The notes beneath the pieces were generated by a model that worked only from the letters and a program-made list of their open reading frames with translations, was not told the DNA's origin and did no database searches. From positions 62,001 through 126,000 of the forward strand of contig NZ_CP060780.1 of assembly GCF_014489495.1 (NCBI RefSeq): a stretch of 64,000 nucleotides of DNA. The letters run 5' to 3'. This DNA comes from Sphingomonas daechungensis (GTDB lineage: Bacteria > Pseudomonadota > Alphaproteobacteria > Sphingomonadales > Sphingomonadaceae). Each line of letters starts with the position of its first letter. Positions within the stretch are counted from its first letter, which is position 1. Shown here piece by piece: positions 13,347 through 64,000 of this stretch. Both the position numbers and the translations under genes were made by a program.

Positions 13347-14439
13347 CTCATCGGGCGTGACAGCTCCGATTGGCCATGGCGTCCCCGCAATCAGAGATTC
13401 CGCGACTTTGGCCATTATCGGCGATGTCTGGAGACCGTAACCGCCCTGCCCGGCCAGCCAGAAGAAGCCCTCGGAACGAGGGTCGAAGCCGGCAACGAGG
13501 TGGCGGTCGGGCGCGAAGGTCCTCAGCCCCGCCCAACGGCTGTGAATGCGGCCAACCTGCATCGTGGTCCGCTCCTCGACCCGGTGTGCCGCGAGGGCAA
13601 CCTCGTATTCGTCGGGCTGAGCGTCGCAGGGCTCCGTTGGCACTTCGTCCATGGGGGAGGCGAACAGGCGGCCGGATTCGGGCGCAAAGTACAAGGCGTC
13701 CCCAACGGTCTTGGCAAAGGGCCAGCCCGCAGTGTCGACGCCCGCCGGGCCGTCGAAGGTGATGATGGTCCGGCGCAGTGGAGCCAGGCCGATCGGGTCG
13801 AGCCCTGCCGCCATGGCGAGTGTATCCGCCCAGGCGCCCGCCGCGTTGACGATCAGTGGCGCGGCAAAGGCATCGCCGCGCGCGGTCATAAGGGTCCAGT
13901 GCCCGCCATCGCGACGAAGATTCGCCGCCGGGGCGCCGAGGACCAGCTCGCCGCCATTGGCCCGAAGCGCATGGACGTGCCCTGCAGCAGGGCGTGGGTG
14001 TCGAGCCGGATCCCGTCGTGGTCAACGAGAGCTGCAACAGCACCGCCTTCACCCGTGCGGATCGCGGGCAGAGTTCGCCGATCCCGGTCTCGCCGACGCG
14101 TTCAAGAGCGGCGAACGGCGCAATCGCCTCGGTCAGGGCGTCGAGTTCACCCAGTTCATCTTCTCGTGCGTGGACGAGCACAGGCATTCGGTGGCCGAGC
14201 GGAGCGTCGGTGAAGCCGGGCTGCGGATCTTCGAAGAAGGTCCGGCTTGAGAGCGTCAGCGCACGAACGTGCGGATCGCCGAGTGCGTAGTGCAGCATCG
14301 TCGCGCTGCGCCCGGAAGAGTGGTAGCCGACCGCCTCCTCCGCTTCGAGAACGGTGACTTTGGCGTTTCGGGATAAAGCGGCCGCGGCCGAGAGCCCGGC
14401 AACGCCACCGCCGATGACGATGATGTCGCTCGATCTCAA
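13320..14439 (-). CDS. FAD-dependent oxidoreductase, DAO family (two frameshifts)
   Basis: A D-amino-acid-dehydrogenase-like flavoprotein. The dinucleotide-binding start SSDIIVIGGGVAGLSAAAAL is followed by EEAVGYHSSGRSATMLHY, a segment typical of the DAO superfamily near the flavin. The C-terminal half (PLIVNAAGAWADTLAMAAGL, GRIHSRWAGLRTFAPDRHLVAGF, FFWLAGQGGYGLQTSPIMA) is the DAO substrate and FAD-binding end. Single bases are missing near 14033 and 13977; with them restored the segment reads DHDGIRLDTHALLQGHVHAL. The start is TTG at 14439 and overlaps the pntAA stop (TTGA). Substrate unknown; glycine, a D-amino acid or a 2-hydroxyacid are possible. Confidence 0.85.
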
Positions 14440-46033: not shown

Positions 46034-47564
<1,531 letters not shown>

Positions 47565-51354: not shown

Positions 51355-52536
51355 TCATACTGCCGATGCATGAACCGGGGCTGAGGCGAACGCGTTTCCG
51401 ATTGCATCGTACAGCGGCTTCGGGCGGAAGTTTGCATCGTATGGCGTCCCGCGCTTCATGGTCTTGTCCGCTCGCGGATCGAATCCATTCAGCCAGCTGT
51501 ATCGGTCAACCATTCCCCAGGCGAGGATATCGCGAAGCTGCGAATAGCTCAGCATCAGGTCGAGGTACGCCTTGGCATAGTCTGCCACCATGCGATCGCG
51601 CTGGGTGATATCGGTAGGTGCCATGCGGTCGTTCACGTCGAATTCCGTGATGACCAGTTTGTAGCCCATGCCGACGACCTCATCCACGAAGCGGCGCCAA
51701 GGACCTTCAGACTCTTTCACGATGTCTGCGACTGGCCCCTGTTTCAGCAGACGGATGTGGGATTGGATGCCAAGCGCATCGACCGGTGTCCCGCGCTTTC
51801 GGAAACCCTCTAGCAGCTTAAGCACGCCGCGCATGTGGGTCTCGTCTTCGCTGTTGCGCTCCCAACTCATGTAATCGTTGTAGACCAGCTGGGCGTGAGG
51901 GGCTTCGGCACGCGCGGTGTGGAACATGAGGTCAAGGAAGGCTTCCCCACCAATCGCGCGCGTGACGTTGGTATCCCGGATTTCACCGGTTCCCGGTTCC
52001 ACCGCTTCGTTCACGACATCGTAGGAGTAGATGCGCTTGCCGTAGCGACTGCAAACTGTGCGGACGTGGCTGACAAGGAGGGCTTCAGCGGCCGCCTTGG
52101 GCTGAGGGCCGAAGTCGAAAGTCTCAAGCCACTTCGGATACCATTTTGTAGGCGTCCAAAACAGCGTGTGGCCGCGCACAGCCATTCCTTGCTTCGTCGC
52201 ATATTCTACGATTGCGTCGAATTGCTGGAAGTCGAAAGTCGTTGGGCCCGGCCGCGTCCACTGCCACTTCAGTTCATTCTCGGGGACCAGAAGCGAACAA
52301 TCGCGTTCAAGGATTGTCGCGTAGGCCGGATTGGCAAAGCTGCCGCGATCGGCGCCGGGCTTGCTCCAAGACACGGCCGAACCAAAACGGCGGCCGCTCT
52401 TCTTCGCGAACGCGTCGAGGGACGCTGAAGACCCTGCGGCCACGGCCGAGTCGGTCGAAGCGATCAGCGCGGCCGAAAGTCCGGCGGCCAATGCTCCGCG
52501 CCTCGAAAATTGCGTTGGCTTGCTTGCAATGTCCAT
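51355..52536 (-). CDS. Endo-1,4-beta-xylanase, glycoside hydrolase family 10
   Basis: Cleaves the xylan backbone. The N-terminus FSRRGALAAGLSAALIAS is a twin-arginine type signal, so export folded is likely. The GH10 barrel shows CSLLVPENELKWQWTRPGPTTFDFQQFDAIVEYA, AVRGHTLFW, SYDVVNEAVEPGTG with the acid/base Glu177, QLVYNDYMSWE, ALGIQSHIRL and KLVITEFDVND with the nucleophile Glu298. 393 residues, no carbohydrate-binding module. The ATG at 52536 is used because it opens the signal peptide. It diverges from the GH67 gene across a shared palindromic operator. Confidence 0.95.
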   Translation of the reverse strand: MDIASKPTQFSRRGALAAGLSAALIASTDSAVAAGSSASLDAFAKKSGRRFGSAVSWSKPGADRGSFANPAYATILERDCSLLVPENELKWQWTRPGPTTFDFQQFDAIVEYATKQGMAVRGHTLFWTPTKWYPKWLETFDFGPQPKAAAEALLVSHVRTVCSRYGKRIYSYDVVNEAVEPGTGEIRDTNVTRAIGGEAFLDLMFHTARAEAPHAQLVYNDYMSWERNSEDETHMRGVLKLLEGFRKRGTPVDALGIQSHIRLLKQGPVADIVKESEGPWRRFVDEVVGMGYKLVITEFDVNDRMAPTDITQRDRMVADYAKAYLDLMLSYSQLRDILAWGMVDRYSWLNGFDPRADKTMKRGTPYDANFRPKPLYDAIGNAFASAPVHASAV

Positions 52537-52563
52537 AACGCTGCATCCACACTTAATTTCCTG

Positions 52564-52577
52564 TGATAGCGCTAACA
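52564..52577. promoter_or_regulatory. Palindromic operator between the GH10 and GH67 genes
   Basis: TGATAGCGCTAACA differs by one base from the perfect palindrome TGTTAGCGCTAACA found in front of the TonB receptor. It lies 28 bases upstream of the xylanase start and 33 bases upstream of the glucuronidase start, so one bound repressor could close both promoters. The central AGCGCT with flanking half-sites is typical of LacI-family operators. Confidence 0.75.
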
Positions 52578-52609
52578 CGCTGCAACAGGCCACTCAACGC
52601 GGATGTGAG

Positions 52610-54747
52610 ATGATGGCCAGGTGGTTTCCGAATAGCGCAGTGACCTTGCTGGCTCTGAGCGTGTTGGTGGTGATTGCTACCCCGCCCGCGCCGAAGATGG
52701 CTACGATCTCTGGCTCCGCTATCGGCCAATCGAGAACTCGCAGCGAGAAGCCTACGTTCGACAGGCGCAAAGCATCGTCGAGACGCGGAGCTCGCCGACA
52801 TTGAATGCGGCAGTCGCAGAATTGCAGCGCGGCATCGGCGGTCTGCTCGGCGCAACGCCCCCTCTTCGACGCGACCTCTCGGACGGCGCGATCCTGATTG
52901 GCACGCCGGCGTCGTCGCGCGTAATCGCAGGAATTGGACTGAAACTGGACGGTTTGGGCAGCGATGGGTTCCTGATCCGCAGCGTCAATCTCTCGGGCAA
53001 TCGCGTGACGGTGATTGCCGCAAATGACGAAGTTGGAGTCCTTTACGGCACTTTCGCCTTCTTGCGGCAATTGCAGACACATCGACTCGCTGAAACGCTG
53101 AACATCCGCGACGTGCCCGCGTCACGGCTGCGGATGCTTGACCATTGGGACAACCTGGATCGCACTGTCGAGCGCGGATATTCCGGCTTCTCACTGTGGG
53201 ATTGGCAAAAGCTGCCTCGCTGGCGAGACCCGCGCTACACGGATTATGCGCGCGCCAATGCCTCGATCGGCATCAACGCCACGGTGCTGACCAACGTCAA
53301 TGCTGACGCCCAGGTCCTGACGCCCCTCTACCTGGCCAAGGTCGCGGCCCTCGCGGATGTTTTCCGGCCATATGGAATCCGCGTGTTCCTGACGGCAAGA
53401 TTCAGCGCGCCACTGGAGCTGGGCGGGCTGAAGACCGCGGATCCGGTCGATCCGAAGGTCCGTGCCTGGTGGCGTGCGAAGTCGGACGAGATCTACCGGA
53501 TCATCCCGGATTTCGGTGGCTTTCTCGTCAAGGCGAACTCCGAAGGCCAGCCGGGACCGCAAGATTACGCCCGTACGCACGCTGACGGCGCCAACATGCT
53601 GGCCGAGGCCCTGCAGCCTCACGGTGGAACGGTAATCTGGCGCGCGTTCGTGTACGCTGCAAAGCCAGGAGAAGACCGCGCAAAGCAGGCCTTCGATGAG
53701 TTCCGGCCGCTCGACGGCAGCTTCCGTCCCAATGTCATGCTGCAGGTCAAGAACGGGCCGATCGATTTCCAGCCCCGCGAGCCGTTCCATCCGCTGTTCG
53801 GAGCCATGCCCAGGACGCCAGTGGTGCTCGAGGCGCAGATCACCAAGGAGTATCTGGGATTTGCGACCCACCTCGCCTTTCTCGGGACCATGTGGGAGGA
53901 GGTGCTGAAGGCCGACACCTGCCGTCCGAAATGCGGAACTCCCGTCGCCGACACGATCGCCGGCATGGCGGGTGTTTCGAATGTCGGCACGGATCGCAAC
54001 TGGACCGGTTCACAATTCGACCAGGCCAATTGGTACGCGTTCGGTCGGCTAGCCTGGGATCACGGCTTGCCGGCACGTGAGGCAGCTGAGGAATGGGTTC
54101 GGATGACTTGGGGCAACGATCCCAAAGTGGTCGAACCAATCGTGGGCATGATGATGGGGTCGCGACAAGCAGTCGTGAACTACATGACGCCGCTCGGGCT
54201 TCATCACCTCATGGCGACGGGCCATCACTATGGGCCTGGCCCCTGGGTCAACAACCTCGAGCGTGCGGACTGGAACCCGACCTATTTCCACAAGGCCGCC
54301 AAAGACGGCATCGGCTTCGACCGGACAAAGTCCGGAAGCGATGCAGTTGCGCAATATTCACCCCGGGTCGCCGGCTGCTTCAGCAATCGCCGCTGCGTGC
54401 CGGACGATTACCTTCTCTGGTTCCATCATGTGGGTTGGGATGAGCGAATGCGAAGTGGGCGCTCGTTGTGGGGTGAGTTGGCCTTCCGGTATGATGATGG
54501 CGTCAGTCGGGTGCAGGAGATGCGCCGAACGTGGCGCGCTTTGCAAGGTGAGATCGATGCTGAGCGCTTCAACGAAGTCGACGCCTTCCTCGGGATTCAG
54601 GAAGCTGAGGCCCGGTGGTGGCGCGATGCTTCTCTAGCCTATTTCTCGAACGTGTCGGGGCGGCAACTCCCTGAGGGTGTGCAACCTCCTGCGCATAGCC
54701 TCGGCTATTACGAGGCGCTGACCTTCCCCAACGTCCCAGGGCACTGA
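52610..54747 (+). CDS. Alpha-glucuronidase, glycoside hydrolase family 67 (one frameshift)
   Basis: Removes 4-O-methylglucuronic acid from the end of xylo-oligosaccharides. An N-terminal signal segment (RWFPNSAVTLLALSVLVVIA) is split from the enzyme by one missing base near 52685; the repaired mature start is EDGYDLWLRYRPIENSQREA. Family motifs follow: SRLRMLDHWDNLDRTVERGYSG, GFLVKANSEGQPGPQDYARTHADGANM, MLQVKNGPIDFQPREPFHPLFGAMP and LEAQITKEYLGFATHL, which carry the conserved acidic residues, and the C-terminal FLYLxxHHVGW-type part (LLWFHHVGWDERM). About 713 residues, normal. An in-frame ATG at 52613 is an alternative start. Confidence 0.94.
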
Positions 54748-54813: not shown

Positions 54814-54921
54814 CTATCCGCGCTCTGGAGCCGGCGGCGGCGGCGGAGGCGGAGGCGGCGGAACCGGGCACGCATCCGTCGCCAGGATCACTGACCCGTC
54901 CGCGCACGTCTGGGTCGCCGG
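54814..54921 (-). repeat. Pro-Cys tail cassette, copy 2
   Basis: The 108 bases at the 3' end of the receptor gene match 26816-26923 closely on the opposite strand and encode the same 35-residue tail. Synonymous as well as three amino-acid differences separate the copies. Confidence 0.85.
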
Positions 54922-57900
54922 AGGCGGCGGCGGAGGTGGTGGCGGAGGCGGCGGAGCCGGTGGCGGCGGCGGCGCCGGCGTGAAGGTGCCGCGCAGGATG
55001 AACGAGAACCTGCGATCGTTCATGAAGTAGGACCGCGGACCCAGCAATCCGGTTGTCGTGAATTGCTGGAGGGTCTTGGTCACCTCGTTCGTCAGGTTCA
55101 CCGCCTGGACACCGACCTTGATGTCCTTCGTGACCGAGAAGAACGCCGAAGCATCCAGCTGCCCGGTCTTGTCATTAAAGATCGGGTCGTACGGGAAGAT
55201 CACGTCGGCTGCGGTCAGCAGGAATTTCGAACGCCAGTTGTAGGCGAGACGGAAGGATACCGGACCCTTCTCGTAGAAGCCTTCGATATTGACGTTGTGC
55301 TTCGACAATTGCTCAAGCGGCAAGTTGCCGGAAACGCCGCCCGGAGGCGTGTTCACCGGAGCACCGCCATTCAGCATCGAGTTCGGCAGGCCCTTGCTCT
55401 TGATGTGCGTGTAGTTGGCGTTGATGCCGAAGCCGCTGAGCAGGCCCGGAAGGAAATCGAAGGTTTGCTGGTAAGCAATCTCGAAACCCTTCACCTTGCC
55501 GTTACCGTCGTAGTTGGCTGGACCACGAACGATTACGGTCTGTGTGATGCCGTTGCTCGTGATGTCGCGGTTGGTGACGTCCTGGAAGAAGAAGTTGTGG
55601 ATCGTCTTGTAGAATGCGTTGAACGTCAGCGATCCCACTCGAGCGAAATACCACTCCAGGCTCGCATCGAAATTCTTCGAGATTGCGGGCTTCAGGAACG
55701 GATTGCCCGCCGTCGCCGTCAACTGGAACCCAGCGCTCGTGTCCGAGCCAATCGTCAGGAAGTTCCGGATGTTCGCCATTTCTGGTCGAGCCAGATTCTT
55801 CGAGGCCGCGAAACGCAGGATGAGATCGTTGGTCAGGCCGAACTTCAGGTTCAGGCTTGGCAACCAATAATGATAGTCATTCTTGGCGAGGTCCTCGGTC
55901 GTCTGACCCGTCGCCCAGGTCTGCAGGTCGGCGTAGCCGGCCGGCCCGAGGAGGCAAACGCCGGTCGGCGGCACCTGCGGCGCAGGCGGCGGCGGAACGG
56001 CGCAGCGAATGGCAAAGGGATTCGTGATACCCAGCGCGGACTGCGAAGGAACGCCGATCGAACCCAGCGATGTGACTTTCGTAGTCACGTACCGGATGCC
56101 GATGTTGCCATCGAGCCGGACATTGCCAAAGATCGGTTCGTCGCTGCCGAAGTTCAGCATCGCGTACGCGGCCTTGTTCGTCTCGCTGACTTCCTGAATT
56201 TCGCTCGGCAGGAACAGCGTTCCAGGAACGACGCCTGGACGGTTGGCCAGCGAATTCCAACTGTTGGCGCTTCCGCCTCCAGCAACACCGGCTGCCTGCA
56301 CGCTCTCGAAGAAGTCGATCGCGTTCTGATAACCATCGATCAGGTCACCGGCGTAATAGTTCGCCGTCGGTGGTCGCGTGGTGTCACCACGGAAGAAGTT
56401 GTTGAAGCTGTACTGTTCGACGTTAGCGCCGCCCACCTGGTCCATGAACACCGCAGTGCTCCAAACCTCAGACAGCGAACCCCAGTTGTATGTGGAGTAT
56501 TTCACCGTCTGGTCGCGGTCGGCGTAACGAGCACCGAACTTCGCACGCCGCAAGAAGGGCACGTCATCCAGGAAGTTGTAGGTGATGTCGCCGCGGAACG
56601 ACCACTGATCGCCGCGGCTCTTTTCCGCGTGATCCATCGCTGCACGCCAGAAGGTGTAGCGAGGATTGCTGAAGTATTCGTCGTCCGTCGCGCCCGACAA
56701 TTCAGGCGAAGTCGGATTTCCGAGATTCAAGGGCTTGTGCAGGATGACGTCCGGACTGTTTCCAGTCAGGTCGACTTCCTGGTCGGCAAAGTTCGATCCG
56801 AAAACGCTGACGTCCAGATTGTCGTGCTTCGCCTTCACGCGCTGCGCGTCGACAGCGAATGACCAGTGATCGTCGACGTTGTATTTGAAATTGACGCCCA
56901 TGTCGGTGACTTTGTTGTCGTCATCGACCTGACGACGAGCCAGCGAGTGCTGCATGCCCCCGACCGGCACGCGATCGCCAACGACTTGCGTGCCCCATCC
57001 GGCGCCATACGGGCTGCCACGCCAGCCGCCCGTCGGGACGGTGATGTAGCCGCTCTCGAAAATGCCGTCGTCGTCGTACTGATAATTCTGGAACCCACCG
57101 ACCGGACATTCGGCGCGGGTGGTTCCGCCTGGCCCGTTGCCGTTCGGCTGGCAGCCCGCGGGATAGGTATTGTATTCGGACAAGTCAGGCGCGGCCTCAA
57201 ACGTATGCTCGCCCCATTTCTGGGTCGCGTGCGAACGGAGGAACTGCGCTGTCAGGAGCGCACGCCGGTCGAGGCTTTCCCACTGGGCCGCTGCGGCAAT
57301 GCCCCTGCGCTGGCGGTTGAAATCCTGCGTGCGGAATTGCCCACCGAGCGGCGCGTATGCGAGCGGCAGCTGATCTGCGAACCCATCCGCCCCGGTGTTT
57401 CCGCAGTCCCGCACGGCGAGCCTGACGGAGGTAGAGTCGTGGTGTCGTTGTCGCTCGGAAGCGGGTTGCGGCAGATCAGCGGTCCGTTGTTCGCACCCGG
57501 AACCTGCGTGCCGTCGCGAGCCTGGAAGTTGGTGATCTGAACACCGTCCGCGCGGCTGAACACCTGCGAGTAGGAAACCGCGCCGAGCAAACCGATCCGG
57601 CCCATGCCGGTATCCCAGGTGTTGCTGACGAGGATCGAACCAACCGGCGACCACTTTTCCGCCAGGTCGCTGTAATTGGCCTCCAGGTCGAAGCCGATGC
57701 GAAGGCCCTTCTGGTCGAACGGCAAACGCAGGTTCATGTTGACGGCACCTGAAAGTCCGCCCTCGATCATTTCCGCAGTCGAGTTCTTGTACACCTCGAC
57801 CGAACCGAGCAGTTCCGCCGGCACATCGGCGAAATTGATGGCCTGTCCGCCAACGCCCGTGGCGAAGGTATCGCGGCCGTTGAACTCCGACCGGACGAAG

Positions 57901-58352
57901 CTCAGGCCGCGAATCGCAACGGCTGAACCTTCGACCGAAAAGTGGTCGGGGTCGTTGCTGCCGGCGAAGCGGTTGATCGAAACGCCAGGAACGCGCTGGA
58001 GCGCCTCGGTGACCGACCGGTCCGGCAGAGCGCCAATGTCCTGCGCAGTGATTGCGTCCACAACCGTATCGGCGTTGCGCTTGATGTTCTGTGAGTTCGC
58101 AAGGCTCTGCCGGATGCCCGTGACGACGATGGCCTTGTCATCGGTGTTGTCGGTCGTTTCCGTGGAGCTGGAAGTCCCGGTATCTTGCGCAGCCGTCGCA
58201 TCGACGGTCGCCTCAGACGGCGTTGTCTCTGTCGATTGAGCATAAGCCGGAGCGGTCCCAAGGACGCACATGGCCAAAGCCGACACTCCGCAGCGCAGAG
58301 ATGCGTTCAGCCCAAACTGCAGCCTTTGGCCGCCGATAACCGGTGACGACAT
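54814..58352 (-). CDS. TonB-dependent receptor with Pro-Cys C-terminal tail (one frameshift)
   Basis: About 1180 residues, an outer-membrane importer, here probably for xylo-oligosaccharides with glucuronate side chains. After a signal sequence (SALAMCVLGTAPAYAQ) come a TonB-box-like DDKAIVVTGIRQSL, the plug domain (VVDAITAQDIGALPDRSVTEALQRVPGVSI, SAVAIRGLSFVRSEFNGRD, VEVYKNSTAEMIEGGLSGAVNMNL) and a long barrel. One base is missing near 57425. The receptor ends unusually: instead of the usual terminal aromatic residue, the barrel end (SYFMNDRRFSFILRGTF) is followed by poly-Pro, PATQTCADGSVILATDACP, poly-Pro and APERG. The perfect operator lies 12 bases before the ATG. Confidence 0.92.
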
Positions 58353-58364
58353 GAACTCTCCCCG

Positions 58365-58378
58365 TGTTAGCGCTAACA
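58365..58378. promoter_or_regulatory. Perfect palindromic operator before the TonB-dependent receptor
   Basis: TGTTAGCGCTAACA, perfectly self-complementary, sits directly upstream of the receptor's GGAGAG ribosome site. It matches the site between the two xylan hydrolase genes at 13 of 14 positions. Repression by a LacI-type regulator and induction by a xylan fragment is the likely logic; the regulator gene is not in the window. Confidence 0.82.
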
Positions 58379-58590: not shown

Positions 58591-60098
58591 ATGTTAGCGC
58601 AACCAAGCTTGGACGTCGTAATTGTCGGAGGCGGCACTGCCGGATGGATGACCGCGTCAGCGCTGACGAAGTTGCTGCCCGGTCGCTGTCATGTTCATCT
58701 CGTCGAATCGGAAGAGATCGGAATCGTCGGCGTCGGAGAAGCGACACTGCCGCACATTCGTGGCTTCAATGAGCGGCTCGGTATCGACGAGGCCGAGTTC
58801 ATGGCCAGGACACGAGCCACCTTCAAGCTCGGGATCGAATTCGAGAACTGGGGCAAGATCGGGGACAGCTATATCCATCCGTTCGGCACATTCGGCCGCG
58901 CGCAGGGCGACATCGGCTTTCACCAATATTGGCTGCGAATGGTCCACGAGGGCCGGACGGTGGAAGATCTGGAGCAATATTCGCTCGGCTGCATGATCGC
59001 GCGGTTGGGCAAGTTCGATCTACCTTCTTCGGACCCCGCCCAGATCGCGTCCACGTTCAATTACGCCTACCAATTTGACGCGACTCTATTCGCGCCATTC
59101 CTTCGCCAGATCGCGGAAAGCCTCGGCGCACAGCGCACGGAGGGAAGGATCGTCGATGCCGAGATTGACGGAGAGACGGGCAACATCACGGCGATCCGCC
59201 TTGCGAACGGAGAACGCATCACCGGCGACCTATTCGTTGACTGCTCCGGATTTGCGTCGCTGCTGATCGGCAAGACGCTCAACGAACCTTTCCAGGATTG
59301 GTCGAAGTGGCTGCCGTGCGACCGGGCCGTCGCGATGCCCTGCAAGACGGAGACTGCGGTCACGCCTTATACGAGCGCCATTGCCATGGACGCGGGATGG
59401 CGCTGGCGGATCCCGCTCCAGCATCGCACTGGCAATGGCTATGTCCACGCGAGTGGCTTTACCGACGAGCAGACGGCGATTGACGCCCTCGTCGCTTCTG
59501 TTGAGGGGAGCCGATCGCGGACCCTCGGGTGTTGCGCTTCCGTGCCGGCCGTCGCGAGCGGAGCTGGGTGGGCAATTGCGTTTCCGTCGGTCTGGCCAGC
59601 GGTTTCCTTGAGCCGTTGGAATCGACTAGCATCTATCTTATCCAGGCAGCGATCACCGCTTTGATCGAACTGTTCCCGGAAAAGCAGATCGCGCCCTCAG
59701 ACCGGGACGAATTCAACCGGCTGATCGATCTGGAATATGACCGGATCCGGGATTTCCTGATCCTGCATTACCATGCGACTGAACGGTCGGACACGCCGTT
59801 CTGGGACTATGTCCGAACGATGCCGATTCCGGACTCGCTCGCCGAAAAGCTTGATCTGTTTCGCCGACGCGGCAGGGTCGTCAAATATCGCGAAGGCGTC
59901 TTCCTGGAGGCGAGCTGGATTGCCGTTTACCTCGGCCAGCGAGTCATTCCGCAGGGCCACGATATGCGGGTCAATGGTCCTGACCCCGAATCGCTTGCAG
60001 CCGGGATGGAGAAGCTCCGTGCCGAAGTTCTTCATGCCGCGCAGACCATGCCCAACCATATCGACATGATTGGGCGCTATTGCCCGATGGCCGCCTGA
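58591..60098 (+). CDS. Tryptophan-halogenase family flavoprotein, copy 1 (one frameshift)
   Basis: About 503 residues. The FAD-binding start is [19 protein letters not shown], then [27 protein letters not shown] carries Lys79, at the same number as the catalytic Lys of PrnA and Reb[12 protein letters not shown] is the WxWxIP halogenase signature; [19 protein letters not shown] carries the catalytic-type Glu. One G is missing in a G run near 59507 (repaired: EPIADPRVLRFRAGRR). Whether it halogenates anything is unknown; relatives in sphingomonads, Caulobacter and Xanthomonas lie beside TonB receptors for carbohydrates. First of four coupled paralogues. Confidence 0.88.
58592..58605. promoter_or_regulatory. 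Imperfect operator overlapping the first halogenase start codon
   Basis: TGTTAGCGCAACCA matches the receptor operator at 12 of 14 positions, including the TTAGCGC core, and overlaps codons 1-5 of the flavoprotein gene. A bound repressor would block transcription close to the start. Because it is also coding sequence, chance cannot be excluded. Confidence 0.45.
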
Positions 60099-61563
60099 AT
60101 GGGTCCACGATCGATCTCGACGATTGTTATTGTCGGCGGCGGCATCGTCGGTTGGTCGGCCGCCGCCGCGTTGAAGCGCCGCATCCCGACGCTTGACGTA
60201 ACTGTCATTGCGACGGCCCCTCGCCGGATGCACTGGCCGACCGTCTGCCCTGCACGCTTCCATCGATCGTCGATTTCCACGCCGACATCGGTCTTAACGA
60301 CGTCGACACGATCCTAAACGCCAAGAGCGGCCTTCGCTTCGGCACTGAGTTCCGGGGATGGTCGGTCGAACATCCAAATTATGTGCATGCCTACGGCCCT
60401 TATGGCCGGCAATTGGGCGCCTCCCCTTTTTACCAGCATTGGCTCCGCGCGAGGGAGCTTGGGGATGTCGAATTGTTCGACGCTTTTTGCTGTGCTGCCG
60501 CACTCGGTGCCGAGGGGAAGTTCTCCGCGACGGACGGCCAAATGGATCTCGCCTACGGCCTGACGATCGACCCACCGGTCTACGGCCAGATGATGCGCGC
60601 CTACGCGACGCATCTCGGAGCCAAGGAGTTAGTGTCCGAAATCGGCGAGGTTCGCCTCCGGTCCGAAGACGGCTTCATCGACGCGCTGGCGTTAAGCGAC
60701 GGAGCGGAAATAGCAGGCGACCTCTACATCGACGCTTCGGGACCTGATGCGACGATCCGAGGAAAGCTGGATCGAGTCATCGAGGAGTGGAGCAGCTACC
60801 TCCCCTGCGACCGCCTTTTGATCTCCGATCGACCCGCCGGAGCAGAGGCTTCGTCTTTAGACCAGGTGCGCACGTTCAATGCAGGCTGGCGATGGGAAGC
60901 CTCATCACCATCGCGCCGGACCGAGGGCGTGACCTACTCCTCCCGGCACCTCGCCGATGATGACGCGAATGCGATACTGGACGATGCGGAGCGGATTGAA
61001 ATCCGGCCGGGACGATATTCAGAGCCATGGTTCCGTAACTGCGTGGCGATCGGGGACGCGGCGGTTTCAATCGAGCCCCTCGAATGGACCAACCTTCATC
61101 TGGCTCACAGCGCGATCGATCGTCTCGTCGCGATGATGCCGGACACGGATTGCTCCCCGGTGGAGCTGTGGGATTACAACCGGCAGACCAATGCAGAAGC
61201 GGACCGCGTTCGCGATTTCGTCATGCTCCATTACGTGGCCTCGCACCGCCCGGATGAGGCCTTCTGGACAGACGCCTCAACGCGGCCCTGCCCGCTTCGC
61301 TAGAGCATACGTTGACCCAGTTTCGCGAACGCGGCCGGCTTCCGTTTTATGAGGAAGAGACCTTCGCTCGTGACAGCTGGGCGGCGGTCCTGATCGGCCA
61401 GGGCGTGTTTCCGCGCCGATCCGACCCGCTGCTCGACGAGATGACCACGAGTGAATCGGCGCGAGCCATGCAGCAAATGCGTGACGCCATCAGCGCGGTT
61501 GTCGCAAGGGCGCCATCGCACGCAAACTACCTCCGCAATCTCGCCAGGCAGGAGCCGCGATGA
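60099..61563 (+). CDS. Divergent halogenase-like flavoprotein, copy 2 (two frameshifts)
   Basis: About 489 residues. It starts directly after the stop of copy 1 (ATG at 60099): STIVIVGGGIVGWSAAAALKRRIP. The fold is that of the halogenases, but key positions have changed: the catalytic Lys is Arg (LRFGTEFRGW, codon 60335-60337), the WxWxIP motif reads GWRWEASSP, and the Glu segment reads IEPLEWTNLHLAHSAI. Bases are missing near 60222 and 61277. It is probably not a halogenase; it may be a structural or regulatory partner, or a flavoprotein with another reaction. Its stop overlaps the start of copy 3 (ATGA). Confidence 0.8.
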
Positions 61564-63100
61564 ACGAGCATAGTATCCGCAATGTCGTTATCGTCGGCGG
61601 CGGCACTGCCGGCTGGATGGCGGCTGCGGCGCTCTCGCGTTATCTCGACAATGGATACACGCAGACAAGCCTGATCGAGTCCGAGGACATCGGCACCATT
61701 GGAGTGGGCGAAGCGACCATTCCGCCGCTGGTCAACTTCAACGCCATGCTCGGCATCGACGAAGACGAGTTCCTCGCGGCAACCAAGGGCACGTTCAAAC
61801 TCGGGATCGAGTTCGTGAACTGGGGGCAGATCGGACATCGCTACTTCCACCCGTTCGGGAACTACGGGCACGACCTGCAGGGTGTTCATTTCCACCAACT
61901 CTACCTGCGCGAACGAAGCCAGCGAGTGATGCAGGATATCTCCGCCTGGTCGATTACCGCAGTGGCATCGTCGCTTGGCCGTTGCGCCAGACCTGGTCCC
62001 GAAACGCGTCCCCGTTGTCGGGGATGACGCATGCCTTCCATTTCGACGCCAGCCTGTATGCCGCATACCTGCGCAGCTACGCCGAGCGCCTCGGTGTCCG
62101 CCGGATCGAGGGCAAAATTGTCGAGACGCGCCTGCGTGGCGAGGACGGGTTCGTCGAAGCCGTCACCCTCGACAATGGCCGGACCATCGAGGGCGATCTT
62201 TTCATCGACTGTTCCGGCTTTCGCGGACTCCTGATCGAACAGGATCTCGAGACCGGATACGAAGATTGGACCCACTGGCTGCCCTGTGATCGGGCGCTGG
62301 CAGTGCCGAGCACCTATGACGGACAGCCCGATCCGTTCACGCGATCCACCGCACACGGCAGCGGCTGGCAATGGCGCATCCCGCTGCAGCACCGGATGGG
62401 CAACGGCCTGGTCTATTCCAGCGCGCATATCTCCGATGACGATGCGGCCCAGCTCCTTCTCGACAACCTGGAAGGCGAACAACTAGCCGACCCGCGTGCA
62501 CTTTCGTTCACCACCGGTCGGCGGCTTCTCGCGTGGAACAAGAACGTCGTGGCGCTGGGGCTGGCCAGCGGCTTCGTCGAGCCGCTTGAATCGACCAGCA
62601 TCCACCTGATCCAGGCCGGGATCGCCCGGCTGCTCGCATTATTCCCGGACAAGCGCTTCAGCCCGATCGAGCGCGATGAATATAACCAGCAGATTCAAAA
62701 CCTGTTCGAAGACGTCCGCGACTTCGTCATTCTCCATTACTGGGCGAACCGCCGCACGGACTCGGACTTCTGGAAATCGTGCGCAGCCATGGAATTGCCG
62801 GACAGCCTTCAGCGGAAGATCGATCTGTGGCGCTCCAAGGCCCGCATATTCCGGGAGAATGCAGAGTTGTTCGCACGCACGAGCTGGGTCGCGGTGATGT
62901 TGGGGCAAGGCATCCTGCCAGAGAGCTACGATCCGATCGCGGACGCGCTGGACGAGCAGAAGGTTGCGGCCGCGCTGGAGCAGATGCGGCTGGCCAATCT
63001 CCAGGCCGCCGAAAGGCTTCCGAGCCACGGCGAATTTCTCGCGGAAATCCTGGGCCATCGACGTCGCTCCGAACCCGAGCTCCCGGAGTTCATCTTTTGA
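61560..63100 (+). CDS. Tryptophan-halogenase family flavoprotein, copy 3 (one frameshift)
   Basis: About 514 residues. [23 protein letters not shown] and [16 protein letters not shown] form the flavin site; [24 protein letters not shown] has the catalytic-type Lys80; [20 protein letters not shown] and [19 protein letters not shown] complete the halogenase signature. One base is missing near 61980. The C-terminal helix pair ([25 protein letters not shown]) is normal. It overlaps copy 2 by four bases and copy 4 by four bases (TTGA). Confidence 0.88.
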
Positions 63101-64000
63101 GGCCCGACCGCATCCGCAAGGTGGTCGTCGTCGGCGGTGGCACAGCAGGCTGGATGTCCGCCGCGGCCCTGTCGAAGATCATGGGAGACATTCCCGACTT
63201 CAAAGTCGAGCTGGTGGAATCCGAGGAGATCGGAACCGTTGGCGTTGGCGAAGCAACGATCCCGCAAATTACGTTGTTCAACCAGCTACTGGAAATCGAC
63301 GAAGGCGAATTCTGCCGCGAAACCAACGCGACGTACAAGCTCGGAATCGAATTCGTCGACTGGACTCATATCGGGCACCGCTACGTCCATCCGTTTGGCT
63401 ATTACGGGCTCGACATGAAGGGGTGGAATTCCACCATCACTGGCTCAAGGGCCGGATGCTGGGCGATGACACTCCGCTTGGCGATTACTCGCTCGGCGGC
63501 ATTGCCGGAGTCATGGGGAAGTTCTCACATCCCCGTTCCGACCAGCCGAACTCCCTCTGTCCAAGATTGCTTACGCCTTCCAGTTCGATGCGAGCCTCTA
63601 TGCGCGGTACTTGCGCAAAATGGCGGAAGCGGCCGGTGTCACCCGTACCGAGGGGCGGATCGTCGAAGTCGTTCAAAACGCCGAGACTGGCTTCGTTGAA
63701 GCTGTCGTCCTTGAAAGCGGGAAGCGTGTCGAGGGCGAGCTTTTCATCGATTGTTCCGGCTTCCGCGGACTCCTGATCGAGCAGACCCTAAAGAGCGGCT
63801 TCGAGGATTGGTCGGCGTGGCTCCCCTGCGATCGCGCGCTTGCCGCGCCTTGCGAACTCGGAGGCGATCATCAGCCTTTGACGCGCTCGACCGCGCGGTC
63901 GGCGGGTTGGCAATGGCGGATCCCGCTCCAGCATCGCATCGGCAACGGTTACGTCTACTCGAGCGCGCATATTTCAGACGACGAAGCCGCCTCGGTCCTG
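63097..64000 (+). CDS. Tryptophan-halogenase family flavoprotein, copy 4, 5' part (two frameshifts; cut by window edge)
   Basis: From TTG at 63097: [74 protein letters not shown] (Lys81), and after two missing bases near 63420 and 63552 the segments [23 protein letters not shown] and [21 protein letters not shown], then [30 protein letters not shown]. It is closest to copy 3. The gene runs off the window, so the catalytic Glu cannot be checked. Confidence 0.86.

Follow-up and report, generated by a model that had tools for sequence, protein, structure and literature searches.

A probable receptor-linked operon of tandem flavin-dependent halogenases, one of them degenerate, in Sphingomonas daechungensis and its relatives

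The closest described relatives of the enzymes considered here are the flavin-dependent halogenases BrvH and Xcc4156, whose native substrates are stated to be unknown (PMC5945002 and PMC7336383, respectively). Xcc4156 has an open site with an exposed lysine (PMC7336383), while BrvH does not halogenate free tryptophan and acts slowly on indole (PMC5945002). In one survey, 83 of 103 halogenases from bacterial genomes lay outside biosynthetic clusters (PMC8269204), and a transposon screen in Sphingomonas recorded one insertion in a 'tryptophan halogenase' gene among its colony-morphology hits (PMC11340318). On the side of sugar uptake, the carbohydrate-utilization (CUT) loci of Xanthomonas and Caulobacter include receptors for some of which induction by xylose or xylan has been reported, and a xylose-regulon palindrome is described for both genera (PMC1790865). 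The present analysis concerns four consecutive halogenase genes, here named HalA to HalD, in a stretch of 64,000 nucleotides of Sphingomonas daechungensis (bases 62001–126000 of NZ_CP060780.1, contig 1 of a 3.0 Mb genome with a record 86.6% complete), referred to as the window. These genes very probably form an operon linked to a TonB receptor, and the second of them likely encodes a non-catalytic partner of the first.

Profile searches placed the four PF04820 (Trp_halogenase) genes on the + strand from 58591: HalA (58591..60098), HalB (60099..61563), HalC (61560..63100) and HalD, which runs from 63097 to the window end at 64000 and outside it to 64629. Read from the sequence, the HalA/HalB junction is TGA-ATG with zero gap, and the HalB/HalC and HalC/HalD junctions are 4-base overlaps, ATGA and TTGA. 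HalA (WRWRIP, EPLEST), HalC (FKLG, WQWRIP, EPLEST) and HalD carry, in translations and orthologues, the motifs of flavin-dependent halogenases, namely GxGxxG, the catalytic Lys, WxWxIP and the active-site Glu, from which halogenation would be their expected reaction. The original prediction, made from this DNA alone, had described the array, its short or absent overlaps and the retention of Lys and WxWxIP in at least three genes, all of which was borne out. It had not recognised that each of the four frames is interrupted, that HalD ends 629 bases past the window, that the operon continues to Cupin_8 and GH43 genes, or that the second member, while rightly placed in the family, is a divergent, motif-poor paralogue that has lost the signatures.

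HalB of the window keeps GGGIVGW and has Arg in place of Lys, WRWEAS in place of WxWxIP, and EPLEWT. In an alignment of 195 other halogenases with 18 open reading frames (ORFs) that profile scores had assigned to HalB, the latter lacked WxWxIP in 18/18 and Lys in 17/18 cases; the others had Lys in 195/195, Glu in 195/195 and WxWxI in 194/195, frequencies that are not unbiased, part of the 195 having been fetched with motif-bearing patterns. Of the 57 positions with at least 97% conservation, 98–100% are retained in HalA partners and 44–63% in HalB, which has lost among others the FAD-side GVGE, the ES following the second strand, Lys, the second W of WxWxIP, and Glu. The pairing of Lys with WxWxIP that marks an active flavin-dependent halogenase is thus missing from HalB, and the PF04820 family match and the predicted fold remain.

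HalB lies immediately after HalA, and in 12 of 18 cases the two overlap by 4 bases. Its dN/dS (Nei–Gojobori) was below 1 in all nine pairs compared, 0.21–0.27 in three close and 0.28–0.54 in six wider ones, and its partners had 0.08–0.27, so that HalB evolves faster; these are rough values, with dS near or above 1 (0.9–2.1 for the HalB pairs). HalB frames of 425–505 codons stay open in these pairs, and the ratios indicate that HalB is under purifying selection. In a first tree, which included L032 and L034 (L-numbers denote loci and G-numbers genomes), positions 1, 3 and 4 of the array were not monophyletic as strict orthologue groups. In a later tree, HalA partners were monophyletic apart from L034, the proteins adjoining HalB forming one clade of 18 plus L034 with support 0.984. 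All 19 genes of the HalA clade adjoin HalB and none of the 176 others was called with one, a contrast for which a Fisher test is only indicative since the sequences are related and the gene caller can miss HalB, as it did in L034. There, a shortened HalB-like frame of about 400 residues with its middle lost (L034:8303-9513) was found by eye between two halogenases.

Among 61 relatives, 46 carry PF04820 matches. Mapping the genes of 106 loci, of which 6 belong to the window's genome, 20 to relatives and 80 to named genomes, and then of 20 more, turned up 20 loci with HalB; the gene caller behind these maps misses genes (L034 lost one halogenase, the short HalB and the receptor) and gives approximate start codons. 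Four consecutive halogenases are present in 13 (the window, L023, L024, L025, L028, L029, L030, L034, L108, L116, L117, L153 and L154), three in four (L026, L027, L156 and, at a contig end, L033), and two plus two around Cupin_8 in three (L157–L159); a HalB fragment stands at the contig edge of L032. A class-wide profile search that scored four candidates per genome gave 12 of 385 genomes, a count not readable as a HalB frequency, and yielded the new loci L153, L154 and L156–L159. HalB loci come from the genus and the wider family of the window, from records of Robiginitomaculum and Oceanicaulis, and from two genomes that belong to a different order (family f58). The spread of the arrangement over genus, family and a further order of the class shows that it is not due to chance. 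Plant-glycan genes (GH10, GH67, GH115, GH43, arabinofuranosidase, GH9, GH3 or, at L033 alone, a weak GH5 match) lie at 17 of the 20 HalB loci, with the calls at L108 and L153 resting solely on local GH3 and GH43 profiles; in relatives, the GH13, GH3, GH43, GH10 and GH67 labels are local-profile matches, few of them checked by Pfam.

The gene array diverges from a TonB receptor of the TIGR01782 (Xanthomonas/Caulobacter) class (54814..58352, − strand), the longer piece of which scores 437.6 bits against a cut-off of 310 (643 bits for its L024 orthologue). As had been predicted, this receptor adjoins a GH67 alpha-glucuronidase gene (52801..54747, + strand; PF07488 464 bits, PF07477, PF03648) and a GH10 endo-xylanase-like gene (51355..52593, − strand; PF00331 248 bits). 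In the 61 relatives, a strong halogenase match and a receptor above the TIGR01782 cut-off occur together in 35, the halogenase only in 3, the receptor only in 5 and neither in 18 (Fisher p 2e-8). Six genomes together have 26 TIGR01782 receptors that pass the cut-off; a halogenase adjoins 18 of these, and the eight without a neighbouring one were checked. By our own profile, a TIGR01782-like receptor lies within two genes of the halogenase in 59 of the 80 named-genome loci, a set whose frequencies are not unbiased, having been fetched with motif-bearing patterns of one starch-locus halogenase. Ten of the other 21 have an Oar-like receptor directly upstream of the halogenase, identified by Pfam barrel domains in L055, L076, L085, L090 and L105 and by weak NCBIfam TonB matches alone in L049, L052, L068, L070 and L080; three more (L046, L067, L072) have an unverified protein of 866–1093 residues, and the other eight are contig ends or have other genes. 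The five loci with barrel domains come from Xanthomonas, Rhodanobacter and their kin, where the receptor class differs and CarboxypepD_reg is present in four of the five. Of the five halogenase loci in the window's genome, the window itself, L019, L020 (Oar-like) and L021 (starch) have a TonB receptor. The fifth (L022:8711-10249) is a WTWDIG-type halogenase near an alginate-export-like porin and a Na+/H+ exchanger, with no TonB receptor. A single clade of 24 receptors, with support 1.0, takes in all 18 HalB-linked receptors of sufficient length for placement (the L023 and L034 receptors went unplaced, and the second receptors of L154 and L156 were excluded); five of the other six members adjoin halogenases without HalB, and one has none near. 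The constant partner of the halogenases is the receptor and not a particular sugar.

Coupling extends past the array, for HalD overlaps the Cupin_8 gene by 1 base and the GH43 start is the last base of Cupin_8. An exact palindrome, TGTTAGCGCTAACA, lies at 58365..58378 in the divergent promoter of the receptor and HalA; a copy with one mismatch, TGATAGCGCTAACA, is found at 52564..52577, where GH10 and GH67 diverge, within the 5' end of the called GH10 ORF, and a further copy of the former with two mismatches at 58592. At a tolerance of two mismatches, 0.02 sites are expected in the window. Outside it, the palindrome recurs between GH3 and LacI (two mismatches) and between LacI and the major facilitator superfamily (MFS) gene (one mismatch). 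With up to two mismatches allowed, it is present at 16 of the 20 HalB loci, either in the receptor–halogenase interval or immediately upstream of the receptor; at L023, L116, L154 and L157 at least one site is inside an ORF as called, perhaps owing to over-long called starts. This motif may be the reported xylose-regulon palindrome, with a LacI-type protein as its binder. The operon, the receptor and the xylan enzymes would on this evidence be co-regulated by a LacI-type regulator. The suggested tie of the halogenases to the receptor is supported by the divergent-promoter and GH10/GH67 palindromes, the coupling to GH43 and the conserved neighbourhood in relatives, the last being one of the two grounds on which the original prediction had staked its case.

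The Cupin_8 gene follows HalD outside the window (L017:16630-17649, L017 being the window locus extended past the window). Its product has the HxD...H metal triad (HYD and WWH), and HxD with WWH or similar is found in 18 of 21 Cupin_8 ORFs, the remaining three being fragments. The best PDB match of the orthologue L024:5919-6917 is FIH, a protein hydroxylase (E 3e-16), whose HxD...H it keeps, although the alignment covers only about 105 residues. From its sequence, Cupin_8 appears to be a protein-hydroxylase-like oxygenase. Cupin_8, SapC and DUF6445 recur in related loci, DUF6445 adjoining three related xylan loci (L025, L029, L030). In DUF6445 (PF20043; e.g., L119:5909-6640 and L025:2842-3558), PHxD is present in 16 of 19, and this motif and a predicted model, which matches 2OG-Fe(II) oxygenases at a TM of only about 0.4–0.5, make it look like an enzyme of that kind.

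The gene order, coupling, conservation, motif loss, selection and regulatory site described above were all read from DNA and translations, and they can be joined in the following scheme. A LacI-type regulator would switch the operon on together with the xylan receptor and enzymes, and three BrvH/Xcc4156-type halogenases with intact signatures (HalA, HalC, HalD) would be made, along with the protein-hydroxylase-like Cupin_8. Catalytically degenerate HalB may act as an obligate partner subunit of HalA, supplying recognition or docking. The chemistry would take place in the cytoplasm with FADH2, O2 and halide, because the FAD fold begins within about 15 residues of the start and no signal sequence was seen by eye in the window halogenases. 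We infer the formation of a HalA–HalB complex, the identity of the regulator and the substrate, which would be an aromatic side chain on a polypeptide, the receptor before export being the simplest candidate. A polypeptide substrate fits best with the lack of an export signal, the open sites of relatives, the paired degenerate subunit and the co-encoded protein-hydroxylase-like enzyme. Taken as a whole, the scheme of an operon for oxidative tailoring that is linked to the receptor, has HalB as a non-catalytic partner to HalA and acts on a polypeptide substrate, perhaps the receptor itself, is put forward tentatively, at rather less than even chances. That the substrate is the receptor or a receptor partner, taken singly, is doubtful. 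The fully specified version, in which plant-polysaccharide TonB receptors (or a protein partner) are halogenated or hydroxylated on aromatic residues during synthesis by HalA–HalB, the two other halogenases and the FIH-like hydroxylase, thereby tuning ligand binding, is speculative and, as it stands, unlikely.

Besides the way in which the named loci were fetched, several observations weigh against oxidative tailoring of a receptor with HalB as a non-catalytic subunit. Over-cut-off TIGR01782 receptors exist without a strong halogenase match in G038, G045, G048, G051 and G054, and L185:5461-8937, a receptor that groups within the HalB-linked clade, has no halogenase nearby, its genome (G007) having a cassette elsewhere. 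Across receptor types, 93 linked and 20 unlinked receptors are not told apart by any aromatic residue (5 in halogenase loci but not near the halogenase were left out); two columns differ in frequency, linked versus unlinked (W 0.66 vs 0.05; Y 0.71 vs 0.00), and these two are Phe and Leu in the xylan-type reference L024. Scans of the 20 HalB loci gave no palindrome at L028, L034, L108 and L156, and no plant-glycan gene was seen among the ORFs examined at L028, L034 and L154. The HalB of L117 retains Lys; its AlphaFold2 model has the halogenase fold (pLDDT 90.5; TM 0.90–0.91 to BrvH) and was built on an alignment of 30 rows, 27 of them canonical halogenases. The monophyly of HalB was possibly aided by long branches, and HalB might have gained another activity.

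What other substrate could account for the array? A free small aromatic compound, such as indole, a Trp derivative or another metabolite, might be halogenated into a signal or antibiotic when sugar is present, the receptor linkage being co-regulation only. BrvH does brominate free indole, at C3, which also counts against a polypeptide substrate, but its authors judged that indole is not the natural substrate (PMC5945002). The intact signatures of HalA, HalC and HalD suit such a reaction equally; however, a single metabolite leaves the starch, xylan-type and Oar-like receptor contexts unexplained, and a conserved degenerate partner is not obviously needed for a small substrate. Neither scaffold-building genes nor indole/pyrrole natural-product genes, as would accompany a PrnA/RebH-type halogenase, are among the annotated neighbours (receptor, GH10, GH67, GH43, GH3, LacI, MFS, dehydratase, Cupin_8), in agreement with the original prediction. 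This explanation is given the same low standing as the fully specified receptor scheme. The original prediction, which had also named modification of the receptor, proposed oxidative or halide chemistry on plant phenolics or on lignin-linked side chains of xylan, for which the xylan locus and a carboxylesterase in one related locus (L026) could be cited. Starch has no phenolics. Among close relatives many stand beside starch receptors, with a GH13-model match at 52 of the 80 named loci (a set drawn with a starch-locus halogenase, so that the figure indicates that starch loci are many and not their ratio to xylan loci) and two alpha-amylase family neighbours by Pfam in L021. Phenolic chemistry is therefore unlikely as a general role, and with no export signal seen in the window proteins this proposal is given very little credence.

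It could also be argued that the enzymes are not halogenases in vivo. QhpG is a flavin monooxygenase that hydroxylates protein tryptophan, and the halogenases here, like the hydroxylase-like oxygenases beside them, might work in its manner. Their NCBIfam matches to QhpG (NF049967; best 35 bits against a cut-off of 240) and to LodB are weak and far under the family cut-offs, and the near-invariant Lys and WxWxI of the non-HalB members speak against it, as does in vitro bromination by BrvH and the Xanthomonas enzymes (PMC5945002, PMC7336383); this seems improbable, more so than the small-molecule route. Least credible, by a shade below the phenolic proposal, is that HalB is merely a decaying duplicate and the tandem array ordinary gene amplification. 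The higher dN/dS of HalB, its poor retention of family-invariant positions and the lost middle of the L034 copy are what decay would leave, but nine of nine ratios lie below 1, the frames were kept over the dS range given above, and the 19/19 association with the HalA clade extends to another order. Decay was rejected on these ratios, the kept frames and the co-occurrence with the HalA clade.

Turning to the rest of the locus, a GH43 (xylosidase) gene with one frame change (L017:17649-19306) follows Cupin_8 outside the window, and downstream of it are GH3, a LacI regulator, an MFS sugar transporter and an IlvD/Edd-type dehydratase. The receptor, glycosidases, inner-membrane sugar transporter and regulator of a CUT or polysaccharide utilization locus are all present, and the bacterium probably uses the receptor for uptake of wood sugar chains. 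Compared with the open orthologous locus L024 (G004, same genus), gene order is the same along HalA–HalD, and identities are 65–71% for HalA (assigned to its group by this and by position), 43–61% for HalB, 66–72% for HalC, 64–75% for HalD, and 60–74% for receptor (60–62%), GH67 (65%, its homology already beginning at 52681, ahead of the called start) and GH10 (74%). All four halogenase genes are frame-interrupted in the assembly, once in HalA (near 59.5 kb), twice in HalB, once in HalC (near 62.0 kb) and three times in HalD (two within the window, one beyond), as is the receptor (once, near 57.4 kb). The counterparts in relatives are open and the neighbouring atpD (46034-47445) is likewise split into two frames, and so the breaks are read as assembly or sequencing errors, in which this assembly seems rich. 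At its end (54814-54980), the receptor has a long proline-rich C-terminal tail with a two-Cys motif (TCADGSVILATDACPVPPP...APERG); similar tails occur in L026, L027 and L033, PPPP being found within the last 150 residues in 4 of 102 receptor ORFs longer than 600 aa. Elsewhere in the window, a weak PF04820 match at 14299-14427 (19.6 bits, below cut-off, first 46 positions only) is probably a generic FAD/NAD fold.

The genomic context offers a concrete handle on the substrates of orphan halogenases, through the neighbouring receptor and HalA–HalB complexes. If the tailoring scheme is true, halogenation would be added to bacterial protein modification, and a large class of orphan halogenases would act on proteins under the direction of a dead halogenase subunit; the poor activity toward free substrates would be explained, and there would be enzyme pairs that may halogenate peptides. 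Even with a different substrate, the conservation of an enzyme/pseudoenzyme pair suggests that it has a central function in nutrient uptake and is not a leftover of secondary metabolism.

The receptor link and an inactive halogenase partner were not found described by title or abstract among the open-licence papers listed, nor were the HalA–HalB pair and its tie to one receptor clade, which may still be published. Both the halogenase family and the sugar loci belong to kinds already described. In the PDB, the HalD orthologue (L024:6914-8437) matches Xcc4156 (6y1w) at 539 bits, 9luq at 516 and BrvH (6frl) at 498, and PrnA (259–261 bits) and RebH (226–231 bits) are much more distant. BrvH and Xcc4156 have the same motifs as this orthologue, and their orphan status agrees with the undescribed job suggested for the array. 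In the available portions of the two reports, a receptor operon and a degenerate partner go unmentioned for them (PMC5945002, PMC7336383), yet BrvH has a second halogenase gene upstream, reminiscent of the tandem array here (PMC5945002). The words 'tryptophan', 'hydroxylase', 'SapC' and 'halogenase' are absent from the main text of the CUT-locus study (PMC1790865), whereas the wider setting is shared: the CUT loci of Xanthomonas and Caulobacter, like the locus of S. daechungensis, bring a receptor, glycoside hydrolases, an MFS transporter and a LacI regulator together in one region.

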